A DNA stretch of 64,000 bases, taken from assembly GCF_004353525.1 (NCBI RefSeq), contig NZ_CP085524.1, positions 940,001-1,004,000 of the forward strand, given 5' to 3'. Made by a program: the position numbers and the translations under genes. This DNA comes from Zhaonella formicivorans (GTDB lineage Bacteria; Bacillota; DUOV01; Zhaonellaceae). How positions within the stretch are numbered: the first letter of the stretch is position 1; each line of letters begins with the position of its first letter. The notes under the pieces are model-generated. The model was not told the DNA's origin and did not search any database. It saw only the letters and a list, made by a program, of their open reading frames with translations. Positions 6,086 to 18,171 of this stretch are shown here, piece by piece.

Positions 6086-6715
6086 ATGTATAACGTTTTC
6101 TATGTACCGGCATTGAAAGAAAAGTCTGTAGCCCAGAAAATCATGAATTACAACAACAACCTGAAAGTCCATGTGTTTGAGTCCAAGGAAATTAAGCTGC
6201 AGGATGGCAAAGAGATAGCTGCTGGTAAATGTTTGTTTTCATCCTATATCGTTGTGGAAAGCGAAACATGGGATGACAACCTTTACTATGCTGTTAGGGG
6301 TTGTGGGGCTATCAGGCATTTAGGAGCTATAACTGAGGCAGAGTTTTTTGATATGTGTAAGAAAGCCGGCATTGAAAGCGTTATCGTTGAGGAACCGGTT
6401 TTTATTGAGGATAAACTCAGAAGCATGTTAAATAAAACTTTGGCAGCTGCTGAAAAGGCAAAAATAAGCTGGAGCGATTTACCTACCAGGGTTAAAAATA
6501 TGCTTGAGTCTTTACGTAAGAGAAACAGCGAATACTGGGAGTATGTAAGAAATATGGACTTGTTAGCTCCTTTCCGCCGCCTGAGCGGAAAGAAATATGT
6601 CCTTTCTTTTCCCCGTGCAGTTTATGAAAACATGAAGGAGGACCTGCATGGCCTGTCGCCTGTTTCAGCTGCCCTCTGCCTGGCCAGGACTGCGGGGGAC
6701 CAAGTCCTTACCTGA
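6086..6715 (+). CDS. NusG N-domain-like protein (possible specialised antiterminator)
   Basis: This 209-aa protein resembles the NGN domain of NusG/RfaH/LoaP over about residues 1-105. It has an opening MYNVFYVPALKEKSV strand and helix, then ESKEIKLQDGK, the core strand LFSSYIVVES (compare LFPGYVFV in NusG) and the RGCGAIRHLG segment where NusG has its V-x-x-F-[IL]-G motif. No KOW domain follows; the C-terminal half is basic and helical and not recognised. The ribosome binding site GAGGGGAG precedes ATG 6086. Placed behind the Cro-like gene, it could act as an element-specific antiterminator that reads through cargo. Family assignment is by pattern only and moderate. Confidence 0.55.
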   Translation: MYNVFYVPALKEKSVAQKIMNYNNNLKVHVFESKEIKLQDGKEIAAGKCLFSSYIVVESETWDDNLYYAVRGCGAIRHLGAITEAEFFDMCKKAGIESVIVEEPVFIEDKLRSMLNKTLAAAEKAKISWSDLPTRVKNMLESLRKRNSEYWEYVRNMDLLAPFRRLSGKKYVLSFPRAVYENMKEDLHGLSPVSAALCLARTAGDQVLT

Positions 6716-7770: not shown

Positions 7771-9018
7771 GTGAAAGGGGAGGGAGTAAATATAGCAAGT
7801 ATCGGTAAAAAGCCGGTTGGTATTAACAAGGAAGGGAAAGAGGTCTGGCAGGTCAGTTGGCGCGATCCCGACGGAAGGCAGAGGCACAAAAGAATAGTCG
7901 GTAAGAAAAACGCTCTGGCCTTCAAGGCAAAAATCGAATACCAGTATAATACCGGTACTCTGATTCCCAAGTCCAAGGAGAAAACAGTGGGGCAATGGCT
8001 CGATGAGTGGCTGCAAACCAAAGAAAACAAAGAATATAAAACTTTTATGGACTACAAACTCATCGTGGAAAAACACCTGAAACCTGCCCTGGGTGATATT
8101 CCATTATCACAGCTCAAGCCTATTAATATTGAAAATTATTACACAAAAAAGCAAAAGGAAGGGAGAGCGGATGGAAAAGAAGGCGGCTTGAGCAACAAAA
8201 CACTGGCAAAACACCACAGAGTTTTAAGGATGGCGCTGCAAAAAGCGGTAGCAAATGATTTGATACTATACAACCCGGCTGAACGGGTTAGCGATGTGCC
8301 AAAACCTGATAAAGAAAAGGTCGGTAAAAAGCTGAATATAAACGAGGTACAGGAGTTAATCAGACTTACCAGGACTACTGACATCGGTTTTATCGTGCAG
8401 CTGGCGTTGCTCACTGGCCTAAGGCTTGGGGAAGTTTTGGCAATGAAATGGATGTATATAGACTGGGAAAAACGCCTTTATACTGTCCGCGAAACATTGC
8501 AGCGGCAAAAGATAGTAGATGAAAACGGGGTCTTGGTAAGTAAGCTTGTTTACAAGCCAAAGCCGAAGTCGGGTGTAACGCGGAAGGTGCCTCTGCCTAT
8601 GGGTATCATTATGCAACTCAGACAGCTCAGACGAAAACAGGCGGAGGATAAGCTGAGGGCAGGGGAACTGTATGAGGACCATGACTTAATCCATTGTCAG
8701 CAAGACGGGACACCCTGGGAACCTTCAAATATAAGCAATAAGTTCCACAGCATTATAAAAAACAGCAACCTGCCGGCTATAAGACTTCACGATTTGCGCC
8801 ATACTTTTGTTTCTAGTTTAATTCAGGACCTGAAAATCGATTATAAGACGGCCAGTGCGCTGGCCGGCCATGCCGACCCTGGATTTACACTTAACACATA
8901 CTCGCATTCTGAGTTTGAATATGAAATGAAGGCCATCCAGCAGCTGGAGGACTACTATCTAAACGGACTTTGCGGGGAAAACACAAAAAAACAGCTGCAA
9001 AACCTAAAAAACGGATAA
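7771..9018 (+). CDS. int: Tyrosine recombinase/integrase (Tn916/phage type)
   Basis: This 415-aa protein has an N-terminal arm-binding region (VSWRDPDGRQRHKRIVG), a SAM-like core-binding domain and a complete catalytic domain. The catalytic residues are Arg in TGLRLGE near residue 217, HDLRH with H340 and R343, H367 in GHADPG, and Tyr377 in NTYSH. All are intact, so it should be active. The GTG at 7771 is the longest start; a GGGGAGGG site just inside it suggests the true start may be slightly downstream. It ends 67 bases before the 3' end of tRNA-Trp, the expected attachment site. Confidence 0.93.
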   Translation: MKGEGVNIASIGKKPVGINKEGKEVWQVSWRDPDGRQRHKRIVGKKNALAFKAKIEYQYNTGTLIPKSKEKTVGQWLDEWLQTKENKEYKTFMDYKLIVEKHLKPALGDIPLSQLKPINIENYYTKKQKEGRADGKEGGLSNKTLAKHHRVLRMALQKAVANDLILYNPAERVSDVPKPDKEKVGKKLNINEVQELIRLTRTTDIGFIVQLALLTGLRLGEVLAMKWMYIDWEKRLYTVRETLQRQKIVDENGVLVSKLVYKPKPKSGVTRKVPLPMGIIMQLRQLRRKQAEDKLRAGELYEDHDLIHCQQDGTPWEPSNISNKFHSIIKNSNLPAIRLHDLRHTFVSSLIQDLKIDYKTASALAGHADPGFTLNTYSHSEFEYEMKAIQQLEDYYLNGLCGENTKKQLQNLKNG

Positions 9019-9085: not shown

Positions 9086-9161
9086 TGGCAGGGGAGACAG
9101 GAATCGAACCCGCAACCAACGGATTTGGAGTCCGCTACTCTACCAATTGAGCTACTCCCCT
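9086..9161 (-). tRNA. trnW: tRNA-Trp (CCA)
   Basis: The minus strand folds into a standard cloverleaf: acceptor AGGGGAG paired with CTCCCCT, D-arm AGCTCAATTGGTAGAG, anticodon loop CTCCAAA with anticodon CCA, T-arm GGTTCGATTCC, and an encoded CCA 3' end at 9086-9088. Its 3' end faces the integrase, marking it as the likely integration site. Confidence 0.96.
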
Positions 9162-10407: not shown

Positions 10408-10507
10408 AACGCGCCTTGTCGAATTAGAACGGTAATATAAAAATGTTAGTTTAATTCAACACGTAGCGTCTAGAGACCCAGAGTTCCAAGGCCAGTGTTT
10501 ATTTTTT

Positions 10508-10540
10508 GCTGGCTTTTATAAAAGCCAGCTTTTTGTTTTG
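10508..10540 (+). terminator. Rho-independent terminator
   Basis: The perfect palindrome GCTGGCTTTTATAAAAGCCAGC (10508-10529) is followed by TTTTTGTTTT. It separates ddl from the cytochrome region and could also be a leader terminator for the small ORF and cytochrome that follow. Confidence 0.75.
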
Positions 10541-10813: not shown

Positions 10814-11959
10814 TTGTCCAGCTCAAGAACTAAACCCTTGGCTTACCTGTGGGTTTTAGGTCTTACTACCTTTTTATTTACTTTCCTATTGCTGATAAGT
10901 CTATATTATGGCTCGAGCGAAGTTTATGCCAAGCCAGATTTTGGCTCTGAATGCGCTAGCTGTCATAACGGTACCACGGCGCCGAAACTTGGTAGTGGAG
11001 AGGCACAACCTGCTGAAGACACTACAACTAATCAAAGTAGCTCCTCGAAAAATACATCGGCCCCGGTAAAACCGACCTCGCCTGAATCAAATCCGGACAA
11101 ATCAGGTGATGTTAAATCAAATTCAAAGGCAATATCTAGTTCAAAATCCGGTAATGGTGCCAGTTCGAATTCAACAGAAAATCAATCAGTCCAATCCATT
11201 CAGGCAAAACCAATGGATAACAAAACATGTTTAAGTTGTCATGCCAATAAAAAACTTAGTACTGAAATAGATGGGAAAAAACTAAGTTTATTTGTGGACA
11301 AAGAAATTTTTAATACTTCTGTTCACGGAAAACTGACTTGTACAAGCTGTCATAGCAATTTTCAACAAATCCCACACCAAAAATTTGCTACTATTAAAGA
11401 CTTTAAAATAGATACAATTAAAAATTGCCAAACATGTCATGCAAAACAAAGTGAAAAATACTCAAATAGCGTACATAGTAAAATTGCGGGTTCTGGCGGA
11501 CCTACTTGCTCCGATTGTCACGGGGATGTTCACACAATCACTAAAGCTAAATTAATTGAAAATGCTTTAGTGGGTAAAAATGAGCTGATAAAAAAATCGG
11601 TGGAACTATGCACTTCTTGCCATACAGGCAAGGTGAAAGAGAGCTATGAAGAAAGCTTCCACGGTAAAGCTGTTGCTCTGGGAAGCACTAAAGCTCCTTC
11701 CTGTGTAAGCTGTCATGGCTCCCATGAAGCGCTAGTTTCCCCAGACGCTATCGGCCAAAATTGTGCCAGCTGTCACGGGGGCTCAGCTGCGAAATTAGCG
11801 AGTTCTGGTCCCGAACATTTTACTCTTGAACCTAAGGGAGAATCTCGCCCTATGTATTTCACTTACAAAACTTTTACTTGGCTAACCATTATCACTATAA
11901 CACTTTTGATAATTCACATTGAGCTGGAACTTTTCCGCAGGCTAAAAAATGCTAAGTAA
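10814..11959 (+). CDS. Membrane-anchored octahaem cytochrome c (module 1)
   Basis: This 381-aa exported cytochrome has eight CxxCH haem sites, in order CASCH, CLSCH, CTSCH, CQTCH, CSDCH, CTSCH, CVSCH and CASCH. An N-terminal signal or anchor segment (about residues 12-38) ends near VYA-KPDFGS. After the first haem comes a Ser/Asn/Thr-rich linker (about 60-130), then seven haems and a C-terminal membrane helix (about 350-372, LTIITITLLIIHIELEL). The start is TTG 10814, ten bases after AAGGAG. A HydC-like cytochrome b follows after 21 bases. Together they resemble a split CbcL-type module that would take electrons from menaquinol and pass them outward. The electron-transfer role is family-based; the partner is unknown. 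Confidence 0.88.
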   Translation: MSSSRTKPLAYLWVLGLTTFLFTFLLLISLYYGSSEVYAKPDFGSECASCHNGTTAPKLGSGEAQPAEDTTTNQSSSSKNTSAPVKPTSPESNPDKSGDVKSNSKAISSSKSGNGASSNSTENQSVQSIQAKPMDNKTCLSCHANKKLSTEIDGKKLSLFVDKEIFNTSVHGKLTCTSCHSNFQQIPHQKFATIKDFKIDTIKNCQTCHAKQSEKYSNSVHSKIAGSGGPTCSDCHGDVHTITKAKLIENALVGKNELIKKSVELCTSCHTGKVKESYEESFHGKAVALGSTKAPSCVSCHGSHEALVSPDAIGQNCASCHGGSAAKLASSGPEHFTLEPKGESRPMYFTYKTFTWLTIITITLLIIHIELELFRRLKNAK

Positions 11960-11980
11960 TGTACCTAGGAGGTGATCTGA

Positions 11981-12694
11981 ATGTTTGAACGCTTTAATGT
12001 CCACCAAAGAATACAACACATAATGATGTTTTCCAGTTTTATTTTACTCACAATTACCGGTTTACCGATAAAGTATAGCCAAACAGATTGGGCGAAAGTA
12101 GTAGTTAGTATTTTCGGTGGTTTTGACAACATGTTTACCGCCCATCTAATTGGCGCAGTAGTAATGATTGCCAGTGCCATCTATCATATTCTATATTTAA
12201 TTTTATACCCAATGCTAACCAAGAAAATGTCTACAGCTGCTTTACCCAGCATAAAGGATTTCCGGGATGTATTGCAAAATATGCAATATATGCTTGGACT
12301 CACTCCAGAAGCGCCCAAATTCGGTCGCTATTCTTACAAAGAAAAATTTGATTATTGGGCCGTCTTTTGGGGAATGGTTATTATGGCGGGCTCAGGACTT
12401 TTAATGTGGTTCCCGGGAATAGCGGCTGATTATTTTCCGCGCTGGTTTATTGCCAGCGCCCGAATCGCCCACAGTGATGAAGCTATGTTGGCTATTCTAG
12501 CAATCTTTATTTGGCATTTTTACAATGTACATTTTAGCCCCAGCTTTTTCCCAATGAGTTTTGTTTGGTTACATGGGAAAATGAGTAAGGAAATGATGGA
12601 ACATGAACACCCCTTGGAGCTTGCTGAGCTTACTACGGAAAAATCCGGTCAAAAAGCACTCATTAATAAGGTAGAACCTAAAGTAAAGGCTTAA
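11981..12694 (+). CDS. Di-haem cytochrome b membrane subunit (HydC/FdnI-like), module 1
   Basis: A 237-aa integral membrane protein with about four helices. Likely b-haem histidines are in HQRIQHIMMF, FTAHLIGAVV, ASAIYHILY, RIAHSDEAML and FIWHFYNVHF. This is the pattern of the cytochrome b subunits of formate dehydrogenase, Ni-hydrogenase and CbcL. It would oxidise or reduce menaquinone and exchange electrons with the cytochrome c encoded upstream. The ribosome binding site is AGGAGGTGA. Compared with the paralogue at 17344 it lacks the last membrane helix, which is encoded by the next small gene. Confidence 0.88.
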   Translation: MFERFNVHQRIQHIMMFSSFILLTITGLPIKYSQTDWAKVVVSIFGGFDNMFTAHLIGAVVMIASAIYHILYLILYPMLTKKMSTAALPSIKDFRDVLQNMQYMLGLTPEAPKFGRYSYKEKFDYWAVFWGMVIMAGSGLLMWFPGIAADYFPRWFIASARIAHSDEAMLAILAIFIWHFYNVHFSPSFFPMSFVWLHGKMSKEMMEHEHPLELAELTTEKSGQKALINKVEPKVKA

Positions 12695-12711: not shown

Positions 12712-12828
12712 ATGCAAAAAGAAAATAAATTTAGCAAAAGCAAGGGGCTTATCATTGCTGAAATGATCTTTTATGCTGTCGTTTTAGTACTTTTTTTGAA
12801 GGCTTTTATTCCATTAGGTTTAAAATGA
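12712..12828 (+). CDS. 38-aa membrane peptide: detached last helix of cytochrome b
   Basis: ATG 12712 follows CAGGAGG. The peptide has a basic start (MQKENKFSKSKG) and one membrane helix (LIIAEMIFYAVVLVLFLKAFI). It matches the C-terminus of the fused paralogue ending at 18171: FSKSKGLIIAEMIFY against FAKSKLLIVTELVIY, then KAFIP against YTFIP. It probably completes the cytochrome b of module 1 as a separate subunit. It lies 17 bases downstream of that gene. Confidence 0.75.
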   Translation: MQKENKFSKSKGLIIAEMIFYAVVLVLFLKAFIPLGLK

Positions 12829-13021: not shown

Positions 13022-13057
13022 ACTAAGATAATAAAATTCTTATTTTATTATCTTAGT
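13022..13057 (+). terminator. Perfect 15-bp AT-rich hairpin
   Basis: ACTAAGATAATAAAA (13022-13036) pairs perfectly with TTTTATTATCTTAGT (13043-13057) over a six-base loop. It lies just upstream of the first conserved hairpin RNA. It may be a bidirectional terminator or an insulator. Confidence 0.45.
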
Positions 13058-13098
13058 TATGTGAAAGTTAATACAAACACTATGCCAAAGACCCCTAG

Positions 13099-13160
13099 CC
13101 ACAAGGCTGAGTCTCGCTGTATGGATATTATGGCCAGATCCCTTGTGGAACTGGCTTTTT
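13099..13160 (+). ncRNA. Conserved hairpin RNA element, copy A
   Basis: The stem CCACAAGG/CCTTGTGG (13099-13106/13141-13148) encloses CTGAGTCTCGCTG and CCAGATC. A T run follows (TTTTTT near 13155-13160). Copy B at 13337-13380 has the same internal bases and a stem that differs but still pairs. Upstream of both lie TATGTGAA-x-GTTAA and ACACTAT. Not matched to any riboswitch I know. Confidence 0.5.
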
Positions 13161-13301
13161 TACATCCAATAGAAAGAAGTTAATGTGCTACTGGTGAAAT
13201 ATCTTCTAAGTTGAGAAGAAATTTTTAGTTAATATCCGAATATGATTGTATGAAATAAAAGAAATGTTGAGAATCCCGAATAAAAATTATTTTATAACAT
13301 T

Positions 13302-13321
13302 TATGTGAATGTTAACACATA
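13302..13321 (+). promoter_or_regulatory. CRP/FNR-like palindrome upstream of RNA copy B
   Basis: TATGTG-AATGTTAA-CACATA (13302-13321) is a symmetric site with eight-base spacing. Copy A has the left half (TATGTG at 13058-13063) but only a weak right half. A CRP/FNR-family regulator would fit genes for respiration, but this is inferred. Confidence 0.4.
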
Positions 13322-13336
13322 CACTATACTCTTTAA

Positions 13337-13394
13337 TCACGAGGCTGAGTCTCGCTGGTATTATGTCCAGCTCCTTGTGAATTGCATTTTTATC
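13337..13394 (+). ncRNA. Conserved hairpin RNA element, copy B
   Basis: The stem TCACGAGG/CCTTGTGA (13337-13344/13373-13380) encloses the same CTGAGTCTCGCTG and CCAG elements as copy A, followed by ATTTTT. Stem changes relative to copy A (outer C-G to T-A, inner A-T to G-T) keep pairing. An inner CUGG/CCAG helix is also possible. It lies 60 bases before the first zinc-ribbon gene, so it could be a leader element. Confidence 0.5.
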
Positions 13395-13439
13395 AGCTAC
13401 CAATGTGGCAAACTTTAAACGTAGTAGGAGGTGGTAGCA

Positions 13440-13640
13440 ATGCAAAACTTTCGATGTCAATGCAAAAAAATAACATTCCAGTTAGAAGGAGATACAATTA
13501 TTATTAAATGCAGGCATTGCAAACGTTACATCTATATTACAACCTCAGGAATAGAAAATATTGAATTTAAGAACGAAATCGAGCTTGACAAAAATAATCG
13601 TATGCGGGAACTCCAACTGAATACAGTAAGACTAAGTTAG
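13440..13640 (+). CDS. Zinc-ribbon miniprotein (Com-like), copy 1
   Basis: A 66-aa protein with a four-cysteine zinc site: C-x-C (FRCQCKK) and C-x-x-C (IKCRHCKRY), with strands in between, as in Com-like zinc fingers. ATG 13440 lies nine bases after TAGGAGG; an earlier in-frame GTG overlaps that site. A paralogue follows at 13785. Both sit between the two cytochrome modules, so a role in sensing, RNA binding or assembly there is possible. Function unknown. Confidence 0.7.
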   Translation: MQNFRCQCKKITFQLEGDTIIIKCRHCKRYIYITTSGIENIEFKNEIELDKNNRMRELQLNTVRLS

Positions 13641-13686
13641 CGGCTAATAGCCCTAAAACAAGTCCAGAAGCTTTTAAAGCTCAGTA

Positions 13687-13720
13687 GGCTAGTAAAAATT
13701 CATTTTTTACTAGCCTTTTT
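13687..13720 (+). terminator. Rho-independent terminator
   Basis: GGCTAGTAAAAA (13687-13698) pairs with TTTTTACTAGCC (13704-13715), followed by TTTTT. It separates the two zinc-ribbon genes. Confidence 0.8.
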
Positions 13721-13784: not shown

Positions 13785-13964
13785 ATGGAAGAATTCCGGT
13801 GCCAATGCAAAAAAATTATTTTTCAGATTGAAGGTGATACGATAATTGTTAAATGCCGACATTGTAAACGTTTTATTCATATCAATACCAAAGGTATCCT
13901 TAACATCGAGTTTAAGTTAGAACCTGAAACAAAAAAAGGCCCTGAAATAGCTAATGTTGAGTAA
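13785..13964 (+). CDS. Zinc-ribbon miniprotein (Com-like), copy 2
   Basis: A 59-aa paralogue of the 13440 gene, with MEEFRCQCKKIIFQ, VKCRHCKRFIHI and EGDTII shared with it. ATG 13785 is chosen because AAAGGGGGG ends seven bases earlier; the frame upstream has no credible start. This copy lies in the same run as the 42-aa membrane peptide and cytochrome c of module 2, with 26 bases to the next gene. The two copies differ mainly in their tails. Function unknown. Confidence 0.7.
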   Translation: MEEFRCQCKKIIFQIEGDTIIVKCRHCKRFIHINTKGILNIEFKLEPETKKGPEIANVE

Positions 13965-14119: not shown

Positions 14120-14235
14120 CTTCTTTCATAAACAAATGAAATGCAAGTATTCCGCCAGAGACTCATTCCCAAGGCTTAAGTCTAGAGAGAAGTCCCAGTC
14201 GAGATGCTAGCATTAGTAAAAGGAGTGAGTTGCAA

Positions 14236-15435
14236 TTGTTGAAACTAAACGCTAAACCCTTCTTAAAAGCTTCTGTTTTTAAAATTTGTCTGCTTGCTAT
14301 CGTCTTAATTTCGGCTTTGCTTTATATATCCTTGGATGAAGCATACGCTAAACCAGAATTTGGCTCAGATTGCGCTAGCTGCCACAACGGAACCGCCGCA
14401 CCAAAACTAGGAGGGGGTGCTGAACCAGCAAAAGAAAACCCAACCGAGCCCGAAAAAAAAGCTCCGGATAAATCACCTTCTCCCGAGCAAAAACAAGCAA
14501 AGCCGACTTCAAAACCCGCCAACGCTGAGCAAGGTTCAAAGCAAACGAAACCTGCTGAACAAGCTTCAGCTAAGTCGGACTCAACTGGAGAAGTTCCAGC
14601 TGAATCAACTCCGGCGGAACCAGTTCAGGCTAAAGCCCCTGACAATAATACCTGCCTTGCATGTCACGGAAAAGAAGGTTTTAAAGGGAAAGTAGGTAAT
14701 CAGGAAATATCTTTAGCAGTTAATTTGGCTGAATTTAAGGATTCGGTTCACGGCGGAAATCAATGTGTTACCTGTCATGAAAATACTAAAGTTATTCCAC
14801 ATGAAGCTTTGGGATCAGTAGAGGAAATAAAGAGCACCGTATCACAAAGTTGCCTGAAATGTCACGCAAATCAAGCAACTGCAATGAATAGCAGCGTTCA
14901 TAGCAAAGTTAACGGTTTAACTTGCGTAGATTGTCATGGTTCACATGACATCAAAAGGATCTCTGAAAATCCTGCTAGTTTATCCAAAGCAAATCTAAAC
15001 GCCACTTGCACCAGTTGTCATCAAGGTAAGGTATTGGATAGTTATAAAAGAAGTTTTCATGGTATTGCTTTAGCTCATGGTTACGAAAAAGCGGCTGCCT
15101 GTACCGATTGCCATGGTACCCATTCCATTTTGCCGGCTTCGAACCCTGAGTCCAAAATCTCGGCTGCTAATTTAGCTAACACCTGTGACAGCTGCCATCC
15201 GGGGATGTCAGCTGCGGGAGCCAACCTAGTTAAAGGTAAGGAGCATGTAGTCCCCGAGGATAAAGAAGGGGCTTTCCCACTGTGGATTACATGGAAAATC
15301 TTTTTAGCGCTGATTTTATTCGATGTCCTGATGAATGGTACTATCCCTACGTTGGAACTGCTTAAGCTGCTAAGAGGATTGTTCCGACCGGTTAAACCTA
15401 GTCTGGATTCTCCTGACAAGGATCTGACTTTGTAA
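14236..15435 (+). CDS. Membrane-anchored octahaem cytochrome c (module 2)
   Basis: A 399-aa paralogue of the module 1 cytochrome. The eight CxxCH sites are CASCH, CLACH, CVTCH, CLKCH, CVDCH, CTSCH, CTDCH and CDSCH. It has an N-terminal signal/anchor, a conserved FGSDCASCHNGTAAPKLG start, a Pro/Ala/Glu/Lys-rich linker (about 60-135) and a C-terminal membrane helix near residues 350-375. TTG 14236 is chosen over TTG 14230 because it repeats the GGAGTGA-plus-seven spacing of module 1. In module 1 the cytochrome b gene follows after 21 bases; here an IS110-type insertion separates them by 1.9 kb, probably weakening co-expression. Confidence 0.86.
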   Translation: MLKLNAKPFLKASVFKICLLAIVLISALLYISLDEAYAKPEFGSDCASCHNGTAAPKLGGGAEPAKENPTEPEKKAPDKSPSPEQKQAKPTSKPANAEQGSKQTKPAEQASAKSDSTGEVPAESTPAEPVQAKAPDNNTCLACHGKEGFKGKVGNQEISLAVNLAEFKDSVHGGNQCVTCHENTKVIPHEALGSVEEIKSTVSQSCLKCHANQATAMNSSVHSKVNGLTCVDCHGSHDIKRISENPASLSKANLNATCTSCHQGKVLDSYKRSFHGIALAHGYEKAAACTDCHGTHSILPASNPESKISAANLANTCDSCHPGMSAAGANLVKGKEHVVPEDKEGAFPLWITWKIFLALILFDVLMNGTIPTLELLKLLRGLFRPVKPSLDSPDKDLTL

Positions 15436-15482
15436 AAAAAGGAGCATTCCTGTAATGAATTAAAATGAGCTTTGAAAAAAGA

Positions 15483-15555
15483 AGTACCTCCTGTTAACAT
15501 ACGAGGTGTCGAGGTGTCGATTAACTAGCGACCCTTAAATAACAGAGGAGGTACT
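15483..15555 (+). promoter_or_regulatory. Inverted repeat sequestering the transposase ribosome binding site
   Basis: AGTACCTCCTGTTA (15483-15496) pairs with TAACAGAGGAGGTACT (15540-15555), with a two-base bulge. The right arm contains the GAGGAGG ribosome binding site of the transposase. A transcript entering from the cytochrome operon would fold and hide it, a known way for insertion sequences to avoid activation by read-through. A tandem GAGGTGTC lies in the loop. Confidence 0.6.
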
Positions 15556-15559
15556 CAAT

Positions 15560-16841
15560 ATGAAGTATAACCAGAACTCAAGAATTTTGCAAATAACAGA
15601 AAAGACTTTAATCATTGGTGTAGATGTAGCTAGCGAGACAAATTACGCCAGAGCTTTCGATTACAGAGGCGTAGAACTAGCTAAGCTACTAAAATTCAAT
15701 AATGACAACAACGGCTTCAAGACATTTTCTGAGTGGGTAAAAAGTGTGGCAAAACAACAGCAGAAGCAGCAGGTAATGGTTGGGATGGAGCCTACGGGAC
15801 ACTATTGGTTTACCTTTGCCCAGCATCTTAAGGATCACCAGCTGAAAATAGTACTAGTGAATCCGTTTCACGTAAAGCGACGCAAAGAATTGATGATAAT
15901 AATCCGACCAAAAATGACCGAAAGGACCCAAAACCATTGCCATGCTGGTAAAAGACGGTCGATACATGGAACCGTACATTCCCGAAGGAATTTACAGCGA
16001 TTTACGAAATGCAATGGAAACCCGCTTAAGATTAGTGAAGCAGCTTAACAGCATCCGAAACAGAGTTAAACGCTGGATAAGCATATATTTCCCGGAGTTC
16101 AACAGAGTCTTTGGGGATTGGGAAGGCAAAGCAGCAATAGTAACGCTAAAAGAGTTTCCAACACCGGATAAAGTACTTGAAAAAGGCGTCGAAGGCATAG
16201 TTGCCAGCTGGAGAAAAGAAATCAGCAGAGCTGTTGGAGTTAGACGAGCCAGCCAACTAGTTGAGGCAGCAAAGATATCAGTAGGAGTACGAGAAGGATT
16301 AAGAGCAGCTCAAAATGAACTTGCCACACTACTAGAAGAATATGAAATGCTGCAGAGGCAATATGAAAGGACAATGGCTCTAATAGAAGAATTAGCCATG
16401 CAGATTCCCGGTATTGAAGAAATGCTAAAAATCAAGGGAGTAGGCCTCATAGCAGCAGCAGGGTTTATAGCTGAAGTAGGGGATATTACAAGGTTTGAAC
16501 ATCCAAAGCAGGTACAGAAGCTGGCGGGACTAAGCCTGAAAGAAAATAGCTCAGGAAAGCATAAGGGCCAAACAACTATTAGCAAACGAGGGCGAAAAAG
16601 GCTAAGATCGTTGTTATTTCAAGGGATTATGCCCATAGTGGCTAAGAACAACGAATTTAAAGAACTACACCAGTACTACACAACAAGGCCACAGAACCCG
16701 CTCAAAAAGAAACAGTCGCTAGTACTCTTATGCTGTAAGCTCATAAGGATATTTTACACCTTACTGAGAAAAGGCGTAGCTTATGACCCACAAAAAATGA
16801 TGAGTGATATAAGAAGGCAAGAATTACAGGAAGCCGCCTAA
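15560..16841 (+). pseudogene. IS110-family (DEDD) transposase, frameshifted
   Basis: The N-terminal RuvC-like DEDD domain shows IIGVDVASE and VGMEPTGHYWF; the C-terminal Transposase_20 domain shows IPGIEEMLKIKGVG and KLAGLSLKENSSGKHKG. The reading frame breaks near 15890: GAATTGATGAT lacks one G compared with the expected KELDDNNPTKNDRKDPK, after which translation continues in the next frame (MLVKDGRYMEPYIPEGIY) to 16841. The break falls before the last catalytic aspartates, so the product should be inactive unless the ribosome shifts frame. Only this one lesion is seen, so inactivation looks recent. Confidence 0.85.
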
Positions 16842-16846
16842 AAAGC

Positions 16847-16967
16847 GCACCGCAACTGACAATGTTACATTTCATCCGTTTGCCAGTCAAGGGTAAAGAC
16901 TGCGTCGCCGCTATCGCGGCCCCTTGACAGTCAAACTCCTGCAATGTAACAAGCAATCAAGCGGTGC
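16847..16967 (+). repeat. Nested 121-bp palindrome at the right end of the IS110 element
   Basis: Four nested stems: GCACCGC/GCGGTGC (16847-16853/16961-16967), TGTTACAT/ATGTAACA (16863-16870/16944-16951), GTTTGCCAGTCAAGGG with CCCTTGACAGTCAAAC (16878-16893/16921-16936, three mismatches), and apical GCCGC/GCGGC (16907-16911/16916-16920). This could be an RNA such as a bridge/seekRNA, or a DNA structure used in transposition. Confidence 0.6.
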
Positions 16968-17343
16968 TGGAAATGTAAAAAAACCTTGCTTAATTAAAGA
17001 TTACGTTCATTGACAAAGCGAGCCGGAATAGTCAGGTTGAAATTTATCCATAAGGGCATTTGACCCAGCAAAGGAGCAAGGCTGACATCCACCTCATGGG
17101 CAGGCAGTACGAAGGAATTTAGGGGCACAGACCCTGTGAGACATGGGAGGTTTGCCACCGGAGAACAAGTGGATTACATGGCCGAAATACGTTTAAAAGA
17201 CGCATATTCTGTCGGTATACACTTGTTAATCCAGATATATACAAAAATAGGCATATTGTCCAAGAGGATTGACTTTGTACAAATGAAAATCTAAGATTAA
17301 GCGAGATTTTCAAAGAAAATTAAAGATTATAGAGGGAGGGCTT
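16968..17343. other. Non-coding right flank of the IS, before cytochrome b
   Basis: No gene is seen. Short inverted repeats are present, for example CACAG-ACC-CTGTG near 17126-17138, and AACAAGT near 17164 with ACTTGTT near 17220. The stretch may carry the rest of an IS-encoded RNA, plus the original leader of the cytochrome b gene. Confidence 0.35.
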
Positions 17344-18171
17344 ATGGTGAAAGGAAGTAATGTTGGCATTAGCAAGGTAGAAAGGTTTAATCTGCAGCAA
17401 CGCATCCAACACGGTTTATTAGCCATCAGCGTTCTTATGCTCATAGTTACCGGTTTCCCAATCAAGTATGGTTACGAAGGATGGGCTGCCCAAGTCATAG
17501 CTTTATTCGGCGGTTTTGAAATCATGTTTAAGGTCCACCTGATTTTTGCAGTCATTATGCTCTTGACCGGCGTATATCATATTGTCTGGATTATTTATAG
17601 TTTCGCCAAGAATCGCCCTTCCTGGGCAATGCTACCCGGTCTTAAAGACATAAGCGATGCTTTCCACCATATTAAGTATTTGGCGGGCTTTGAGCAAAAA
17701 GCTCCTAGATTTGGTCGTTACACTTATCTGGAGAAGTTTGAGTATTTTGCTGTGGTCTGGGGCATGATTTTAATGGGGCTCACGGGGTTTATGCTCTGGT
17801 ATCCGCAAAAATTTGTGTTTATGCCCAGGTGGGCCTTTCAAGTAGCGCGGGTAGCTCATACCAACGAAGCCTTTGTAGCCATGTTGGCTTTATTTGTCGG
17901 CCACTTCTTTGCGGTTCATTTTAACCCCAAAGTTTTTCCCACCAGCAGGGTTTGGCTGGATGGCACCATTGATTTGCATCATCTAAAAGAAGAGCATCCT
18001 CTGGAGTATGAAAAGTTGTTTGGCCAGGGAGAAGTTGCAGCAGCCCATGAAGAACCAAAGGGCTTTGCCAAATCAAAGCTTTTGATTGTGACGGAGTTAG
18101 TGATCTATGTGGGCCTGTTTATTTTCTTACTCTACACCTTTATTCCAAAATTTTTACATGGCATAATATAG
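17344..18171 (+). CDS. Cytochrome b membrane subunit (HydC/FdnI-like), module 2, fused form
   Basis: A 275-aa paralogue of the 11981 cytochrome b, with the same histidine pattern (LQQRIQHGLL, FKVHLIFAV, GVYHIVWI, RVAHTNEAFV, FVGHFFAVHF). It continues through an acidic linker (HHLKEEHPLEYEKLF...) into one more helix, LLIVTELVIYVGLFIFLLYTF. That helix is the same segment that module 1 encodes as a separate 38-aa gene. The ribosome binding site is GAGGGAGG. Its usual upstream partner, the module 2 cytochrome c, is cut off by the IS110 insertion, so expression may depend on a promoter in the IS flank. Confidence 0.87.
   Translation: MVKGSNVGISKVERFNLQQRIQHGLLAISVLMLIVTGFPIKYGYEGWAAQVIALFGGFEIMFKVHLIFAVIMLLTGVYHIVWIIYSFAKNRPSWAMLPGLKDISDAFHHIKYLAGFEQKAPRFGRYTYLEKFEYFAVVWGMILMGLTGFMLWYPQKFVFMPRWAFQVARVAHTNEAFVAMLALFVGHFFAVHFNPKVFPTSRVWLDGTIDLHHLKEEHPLEYEKLFGQGEVAAAHEEPKGFAKSKLLIVTELVIYVGLFIFLLYTFIPKFLHGII

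Follow-up and report, generated by a model that had tools for sequence, protein, structure and literature searches.

What do two similar hairpin-forming RNAs do between two multihaem cytochrome modules of Zhaonella formicivorans? The question is raised by the window, a 64,000 nt stretch of contig NZ_CP085524.1 (assembly GCF_004353525.1, positions 940,001 to 1,004,000 of the forward strand), to whose positions all coordinates below refer and on whose + strand lie the cytochrome, small membrane protein and zinc-ribbon genes and the boxes and RNA elements located here. An earlier note, made from the sequence alone, had described the two hairpin RNAs (copies A and B) as a selected RNA that matches no known riboswitch. 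In the analysis presented here, A and B appear to be diverged members of an unrecorded family of on/off RNA leaders located 5′ of respiration genes in one phylum. The probability that this account holds as a whole, with the leaders acting as attenuators that are most likely read by small zinc-ribbon proteins resembling Com of phage Mu, is put at about one half. Transcription attenuation by small hairpins is a known principle; the RNA itself is unrecorded, and its reader is probably Com-like.

Copies A and B in the window

The two copies are confirmed by the sequence, with common loop bases and differing but paired stems as described in the earlier note. The stem arms, as read from the sequence, are CCACAAGG (13099-13106) and CCTTGTGG (13141-13148) in copy A, and TCACGAGG (13337-13344) and CCTTGTGA (13373-13380) in copy B; CCAG and the 13-mer CTGAGTCTCGCTG (13107-13119 in A, 13345-13357 in B) are common to both. 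The upstream boxes and T runs are also present, the former as a 26 nt candidate promoter/operator box (TATGTGAAnGTTAAyACAnACACTAT) at 13058-13083 (TATGTGAAAGTTAATACAAACACTAT, copy A) that is directly repeated at 13302-13327 (TATGTGAATGTTAACACATACACTAT, copy B), the latter at 13156-13161 and 13387-13391, respectively. The box contains a half-palindrome in copy A (TGTG-N8-TACA) and TGTG-N8-CACA in copy B, and CACTAT is a -10 candidate. Unguided repeat finding recovers the A/B repeats (42 nt at 79% and 20 nt at 95%). In the 3.3 Mb genome the 13-mer occurs exactly twice, with no third copy even allowing one mismatch (at two mismatches, 0.4 matches are expected from window shuffles), and the box likewise has two occurrences and no third. 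Directly 5′ of the copy A box there is a 16 bp AT-rich perfect inverted repeat (ACTAAGATAATAAAAT, 13022-13057).

The copy A leader (13088-13163) has two near-equal folds. In one, GAC (13090-92) and GTC (13111-13113) enclose a small hairpin, AGCC[ACAA]GGCT (13097-13108), with GA between hairpin and GTC, followed by a terminator-like stem of GCCAG (13133-37) and CTGGC (13151-55) with a T6 run (-22.2 kcal/mol). In the other, the long stem of the earlier note (13099-13148, -23.5 kcal/mol) forms between CCACAAGG, from the loop region of the small hairpin, and CCTTGTGG, which lies within the loop of the terminator, and the two structures are mutually exclusive. The pairing first described is present, but the description was incomplete, as a second fold probably competes with that stem. 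The copy B leader (13328-13394) contains AATC[ACGA]GGCT (13335-13346) followed by GA and GTC, the alternative stem TCACGAGG/CCTTGTGA and a T5 run. Between the A and B stems, one pair is fully compensated (C-G to U-A) and another becomes a wobble (A-U to G-U), and single-sequence folding of the two is only mildly better than that of shuffles (z -1.9 to -2.3). A kink-turn reading of the GA internal loop was rejected, as the opposite strand lacks a matching GA.

Orthologous leaders in relatives

A covariance model (CM) made from A and B and run over 149 relatives gave nothing convincing beyond the two copies, with one spurious 25-bit match (genome G053). The zinc-ribbon gene downstream of copy B (13440-13640, 66 residues) has relatives in 33 of 199 genomes; twenty of their loci were taken for comparison, and 250 kb of syntenic loci were scanned. 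The best conserved loci share one gene order: multihaem cytochrome c, cytochrome b, small membrane protein, zinc-ribbon genes, second small membrane protein, multihaem cytochrome c and cytochrome b. The top three matches of the A/B-only CM in these 250 kb fall at the matching junction in loci L094, L095 and L097 (E 2e-4, 0.01 and 0.2, respectively), where they lie 120-130 nt 5′ of the zinc-ribbon gene that comes first in the downstream block, so that the covariance search near multihaem cytochromes proposed in the earlier note does find relatives beside them.

A regular expression for this kind of element, the type I leader (GACC-N-ARYC-NNNA-GGNT-GAGTC), found the core GACC..ARYC[NNNA]GGNTGAGTC at that junction in L093-L097, L100 and L103 and nowhere else in the scanned loci, the sole other match (L216) being the sequence of L094 repeated; L178 matches the inner part of the leader. 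In all, eight loci of the phylum other than the window have a type I leader at the junction from small membrane gene to zinc-ribbon gene. In the window the corresponding small membrane protein gene, assigned by tblastn synteny, lies at 12712-12828. Copy A fits the type I definition in full (GAC..ARYC[NNNA]GGCT-GA-GTC at the small membrane gene junction, 5′ of a Com-like gene), and copy B departs from it in two respects only, with ACTC in place of the outer GAC and a break in one inner pair.

The alignment of type I leaders has 93% standard pairs, compared with 17-37% in slid-partner controls, and one pair is changed on both sides in two sequences. The minimum-energy fold in L093, L095, L097 and largely L094 is the small hairpin closed by GAC/GUC with a separate strong terminator. 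Long-stem complementarity is kept in L094, L095 and L097 with altered bases (CAAAAGG/CCTTTTG), most pairing being retained with an extra C-G to A-U change (TCAAAAGG/CCTTTTGG in L094), and it exceeds that of dinucleotide shuffles at p<0.03 in five of nine leaders (A 0.010, B 0.027, L094 0.012, L095 0.007, L100 0.026). These leaders may switch between the two folds. The leaders of other genomes give stronger evidence for the stem than the comparison of A with B. The view that the RNA is under selection, and its tie to the cytochrome modules, are borne out; a simple local duplication, the outcome envisaged had no further copies been found anywhere, is not. TTGTGAA...CACAA-like palindromes with the spacing of CRP/FNR/Rex-like sites (TGTG-N8-CACA) were seen at 13060-13075 and 13304-13319 in the window, and similar ones 5′ of leaders in L096, L100 and L103-L106.

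Three word searches were set aside. The exact word AGGCTGAGTCTCGCTG has 44 matches in 85,000 species genomes, about the chance number and none with the surrounding element; matches of GGCTGAGTCTGGCTG in four relatives look like tRNA-Ser genes; and the pattern RGYCNMAAGGCTGAGTC is exact only in G000, G043, G083, G111 and G117 across the phylum, with one-mismatch matches numerous in the reversed control too.

A tandem-type element at respiration genes

Many copies of a second element, composed of two tiny hairpins (AGUC[CNGA]GACU and AGUC[CAGA]GGCC; for example, AGTCCGGAGACTTTAAGTCCAGAGGCCAGC...GCTGGCCTTTT), are found around the loci of the type I leaders. The pattern is present in 25 of 398 phylum genomes with 0 matches in the reversed control, and a covariance model of it, R3, identifies the element in 29 of 393 at E<=1e-3. 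It spans about 20 genera of the sample, and its 27 nt dual hairpin is almost invariant. The two copies of the earlier note do have relatives, but on their own they understate a conserved set of about 100 related tandem elements in 29 genomes, also located 5′ of other respiration loci.

Of 100 elements, 90 have a terminator stem, 5 pairs long or longer, whose start coincides exactly with the 3′ arm of hairpin 2, and 88 have a U-rich tail; hairpin 2 and the terminator therefore exclude each other. At several positions of the terminator stem both members of a pair have changed (G-C to A-U, for example). A third arm able to pair with the middle one, GCCAG and then a T run, is present in 13 of the 100 elements (L112, L173, L181, L182, L183, L185, L186 and others) and noted for 10466-10535 of the window; such three-arm elements, in which hairpin 2 would favour termination instead of blocking it, are possible switches of opposite sign. 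Tandem elements frequently lie in adjacent pairs about 90-200 nt apart (L108, L173, L176, L179, L182-L185, L224), an arrangement like that of A and B in the window.

Most tandem elements sit 5′ of zinc-ribbon, small membrane and multihaem cytochrome genes. At unlinked loci the targets are nuoK/nuoL, the ATP synthase F0 subunit A region, a lactate-family permease, a second cytochrome operon and cobaltochelatase-like ATPase genes, and this energy-conservation theme, together with the unlinked positions, argues for a trans-acting signal. Tandem elements were also noted 5′ of a cluster of a chelatase-like AAA+ ATPase and a VWA-domain protein in several genomes (L175, L220-L222).

The R3 search found no canonical tandem-type copy in the window's genome, which has two diverged candidates. 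One, AAGTCCAGAAGCTT-TTAAAGCTCAGTAGGCTAGT...ACTAGCCTTTTT at 13655-13720, lies between the two zinc-ribbon genes of the window with a terminator detected by terminator scan, occupies the same position as the tandem elements of L094, L095 and L097 and has a weak R3 match (E 2.4). The other, GTCTAGAGAC..GGCCAGTG..GCTGGCTTTT..GCCAGCTTTTT at 10466-10535, is degenerate, lies 5′ of the first cytochrome module and has a weak nhmmer match of 10.6 bits. Both are likely diverged tandem-type elements. Position, the shared ARYC[NNNA]GGCY hairpin and the terminator suggest that the A/B type is descended from the same family as the tandem type. No such RNA element and no close protein were found in viral contigs and phage genomes, and no report of this RNA was found in the open-licence literature.

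Com-like zinc-ribbon proteins

The two zinc-ribbon genes of the window (13440-13640 and 13785-13964, both of the CxCKK class) encode proteins whose top PHROG family is gpCom (PHROG 13819, E 1.3e-4 to 0.03, the former value for the first gene). Comparison of the first with Mu Com by hhalign gave a probability of 95.9% (E 5e-9), compared with 0.6% for an unrelated control zinc ribbon, and BLASTP gave 42% identity across the 33-residue zinc domain. Com (PF10122), known from Mu-like phages, acts there as an activator of a single mRNA. It activates translation of mom, and its target is a hairpin loop CC(N)2-3GAG with a C-G closing pair, mostly as a double motif, in which the GA step is crucial (PMC6483171). 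The system described here resembles it in the small zinc-ribbon protein, the putative short hairpin target, a loop with CC and GAG, the C-G closing pair, the two motif copies and a protein gene that adjoins the target RNA. In contrast to Mu, the elements are cellular, multicopy and beside respiration genes, the putative target is tied to transcription terminators rather than to a translation start, and the first metal knuckle is CxC, not CxxC.

In most tandem elements both hairpins carry CCNGAG; the loops of A and B are ACAA and ACGA. Of the 29 genomes positive for the RNA, 27 have zinc-ribbon genes (Fisher 6e-28) and the other two are 61% and 63% complete, and the loop of the nearest element differs between paralogues (CxCKK genes, 0 CNGA and 16 other; remaining genes, 29 and 9; p 1e-7), both p values ignoring shared ancestry and linkage. 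The variation of the loop 5′ of zinc-ribbon genes with protein subclass (CxCKK or the rest) can be seen within L095, L097, L103, L178 and others, and suggests several parallel RNA/protein specificities within one genome.

Proposed mechanism and its weight

We infer from these patterns that the RNA is bound by protein, and with this a sign of regulation and a signal. A and B would be tandem promoter-plus-leader copies in control of the zinc-ribbon operon that lies between one cytochrome module and the other; the earlier note was right about hairpins, but rather than stand-alone small RNAs they look like leader or attenuator RNAs of Com-like genes. In one state, the short hairpin ARYC[NNNA]GGCT closed by GAC/GUC would allow the terminator that follows it, clear in A, to form; in the other, the long stem would occupy one arm of that terminator. 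In the tandem type, where the terminator starts at the 3′ arm of hairpin 2, formation of one would preclude the other. The neighbouring Com-like proteins would most likely bind the loops of the hairpins and so determine whether transcription terminates or reads through, and the genes so switched would be cytochrome and other respiration genes, including the zinc-ribbon genes themselves. A wider version, in which several paralogous Com-like proteins, each with its own RNA loop, switch multihaem cytochromes, complex I, ATP synthase and lactate permease via dozens of tandem-hairpin attenuators, some of them with three competing arms and an opposite response, is offered tentatively and is the less probable of the two. 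If true, the mechanism would constitute a new RNA-based layer of control for anaerobic and extracellular electron transfer in the phylum, and a natural set of matched protein/loop pairs.

Several results, in addition to the ancestry and linkage mentioned above, weigh against this reading. The zinc-ribbon proteins are called Com-like here because the Pfam Com model (PF10122, Zn_ribbon_Com) misses the window protein and its relatives at E<=10, whereas Mu Com itself scores E 2.7e-9. The loop spacing is one base (CC-N1-GAG), compared with the two to three of the SELEX motif of Mu Com. A lone zinc-ribbon gene, with no RNA element found, is present in G048, G086, G152, G161 and G389. At the RNA level, the pairing evidence from A and B by themselves is thin, long-stem complementarity is not above that of dinucleotide shuffles in L093 and L103, both tiny hairpins of the tandem type are near-invariant so that covariation cannot test their pairing, and R3 gives no match to A or B. 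Finally, no clear GC-rich terminator was found in the copy B leader. Copy B may act on translation instead, via a possible platform at 13396-13442, read from the sequence, in which GCTACC (13396-13401) is complementary to GGTAGC (13433-13438) beside the Shine-Dalgarno sequence and ATG of the zinc-ribbon gene.

Alternative explanations

If not read by a protein, the two small hairpins, or the A/B hairpin, could form a riboswitch that binds a respiration-linked small molecule or ion, with the zinc-ribbon proteins merely regulated. Near-invariant short tandem hairpins that overlap a terminator at several unlinked loci with one physiological theme would suit this, and the tandem arrangement is common. 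Guanidine-II (mini-ykkC) riboswitches have two short tandem hairpins with matching tetraloops beside the expression platform. The tandem type differs from them in loop sequence and gene context and in having no Rfam match; neither the two copies nor the tandem type match any Rfam 15 family above the gathering threshold, with nothing relevant even at E<=5, which bears out the earlier statement on known riboswitches. Hairpins of 3-4 bp with four-base loops are, however, small for an aptamer, loop identity tracks the subclass of the downstream zinc-ribbon protein, and the RNA co-occurs with a homologue of a known RNA-binding protein, making a riboswitch unlikely.

Unregulated terminators or processing stems within polycistronic operons, with hairpins that protect RNA ends and A/B as a duplicated promoter with its terminator, are a still weaker candidate. 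A terminator-like stem does end nearly every element, and A and B do have duplicated promoter boxes, but such stems would have no need of an almost invariant dual hairpin across some 20 genera and unlinked loci. In RAT antiterminators (SacY/BglG family), as in the tandem type, an RNA structure overlaps a terminator, and in RAT it is stabilised by a protein (PMC3369931); RAT is one hairpin of about 30 nt, whereas the tandem type has two hairpins of about 12 nt each.

Attenuators controlled by ANTAR proteins, in which two hairpins and a terminator are read by an ANTAR antiterminator, are largely refuted. The architecture and logic are as published for EutV targets (PMC3369931), the likeness to ANTAR-target RNAs (EutV, NasR, AmiR) extending to two small conserved-loop hairpins, the second overlapping an intrinsic terminator, and several attenuators per operon; three ANTAR proteins are encoded in the window's genome, and ANTAR proteins are present in four of five other genomes tested. 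However, the loop of an ANTAR target is a hexanucleotide whose first base is A and whose fourth is G, and this A1/G4 hexaloop is absent from the tandem type, which has no A1 and whose hexaloop reads CCNGAG or CNNNAG (CNGA within C-G). Furthermore, genome G040, which is 99% complete and has eight tandem elements, has no ANTAR domain at E<=0.1.

An explanation at the level of DNA, in which paired regulator sites (CRP/FNR/Rex-like TGTG-N8-CACA) are the functional feature and the hairpins are incidental, is very improbable. The palindromic boxes are conserved between the copies and resembled by TTGTGAA-like boxes 5′ of several orthologous leaders, but the overlap of hairpin and terminator and the box-less elements inside operons are left unexplained. 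Translated leader peptides acting by ribosome-mediated attenuation are scarcely credible, as the GTG-started frames over A (13061-13183) and B (13305-13418), which are open across the conserved parts and share MxVNTxT...AESR, have no visible Shine-Dalgarno-like sequence and would start within the promoter box.

Neighbouring features of the locus

The first cytochrome module (10814-12694) consists of a multihaem cytochrome c (10814-11959) and a cytochrome b561-type gene (11981-12694), and the second (14230-18171) of a multihaem cytochrome c (14230-15435) and a cytochrome b561-type gene (17344-18171), as assigned by Pfam. Further upstream, 6086-6715 likely encodes a NusG paralogue with a weak LoaP match (NF033641, E 9e-5), near XRE regulators, an integrase gene (7771-9018) and a tRNA gene (9089-9161), and the region has the look of a mobile island with a specialised antiterminator gene on it. 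This paralogue was set aside as the antiterminator of A and B on account of the weak LoaP match and the probable mobile island beside a tRNA gene. The multihaem cytochrome c and cytochrome b genes of the second module are adjacent in relatives and interrupted in the window by an insertion, which by eye is an IS110-family-like transposase gene in two overlapping frames (15560-16841), apparently frameshifted.
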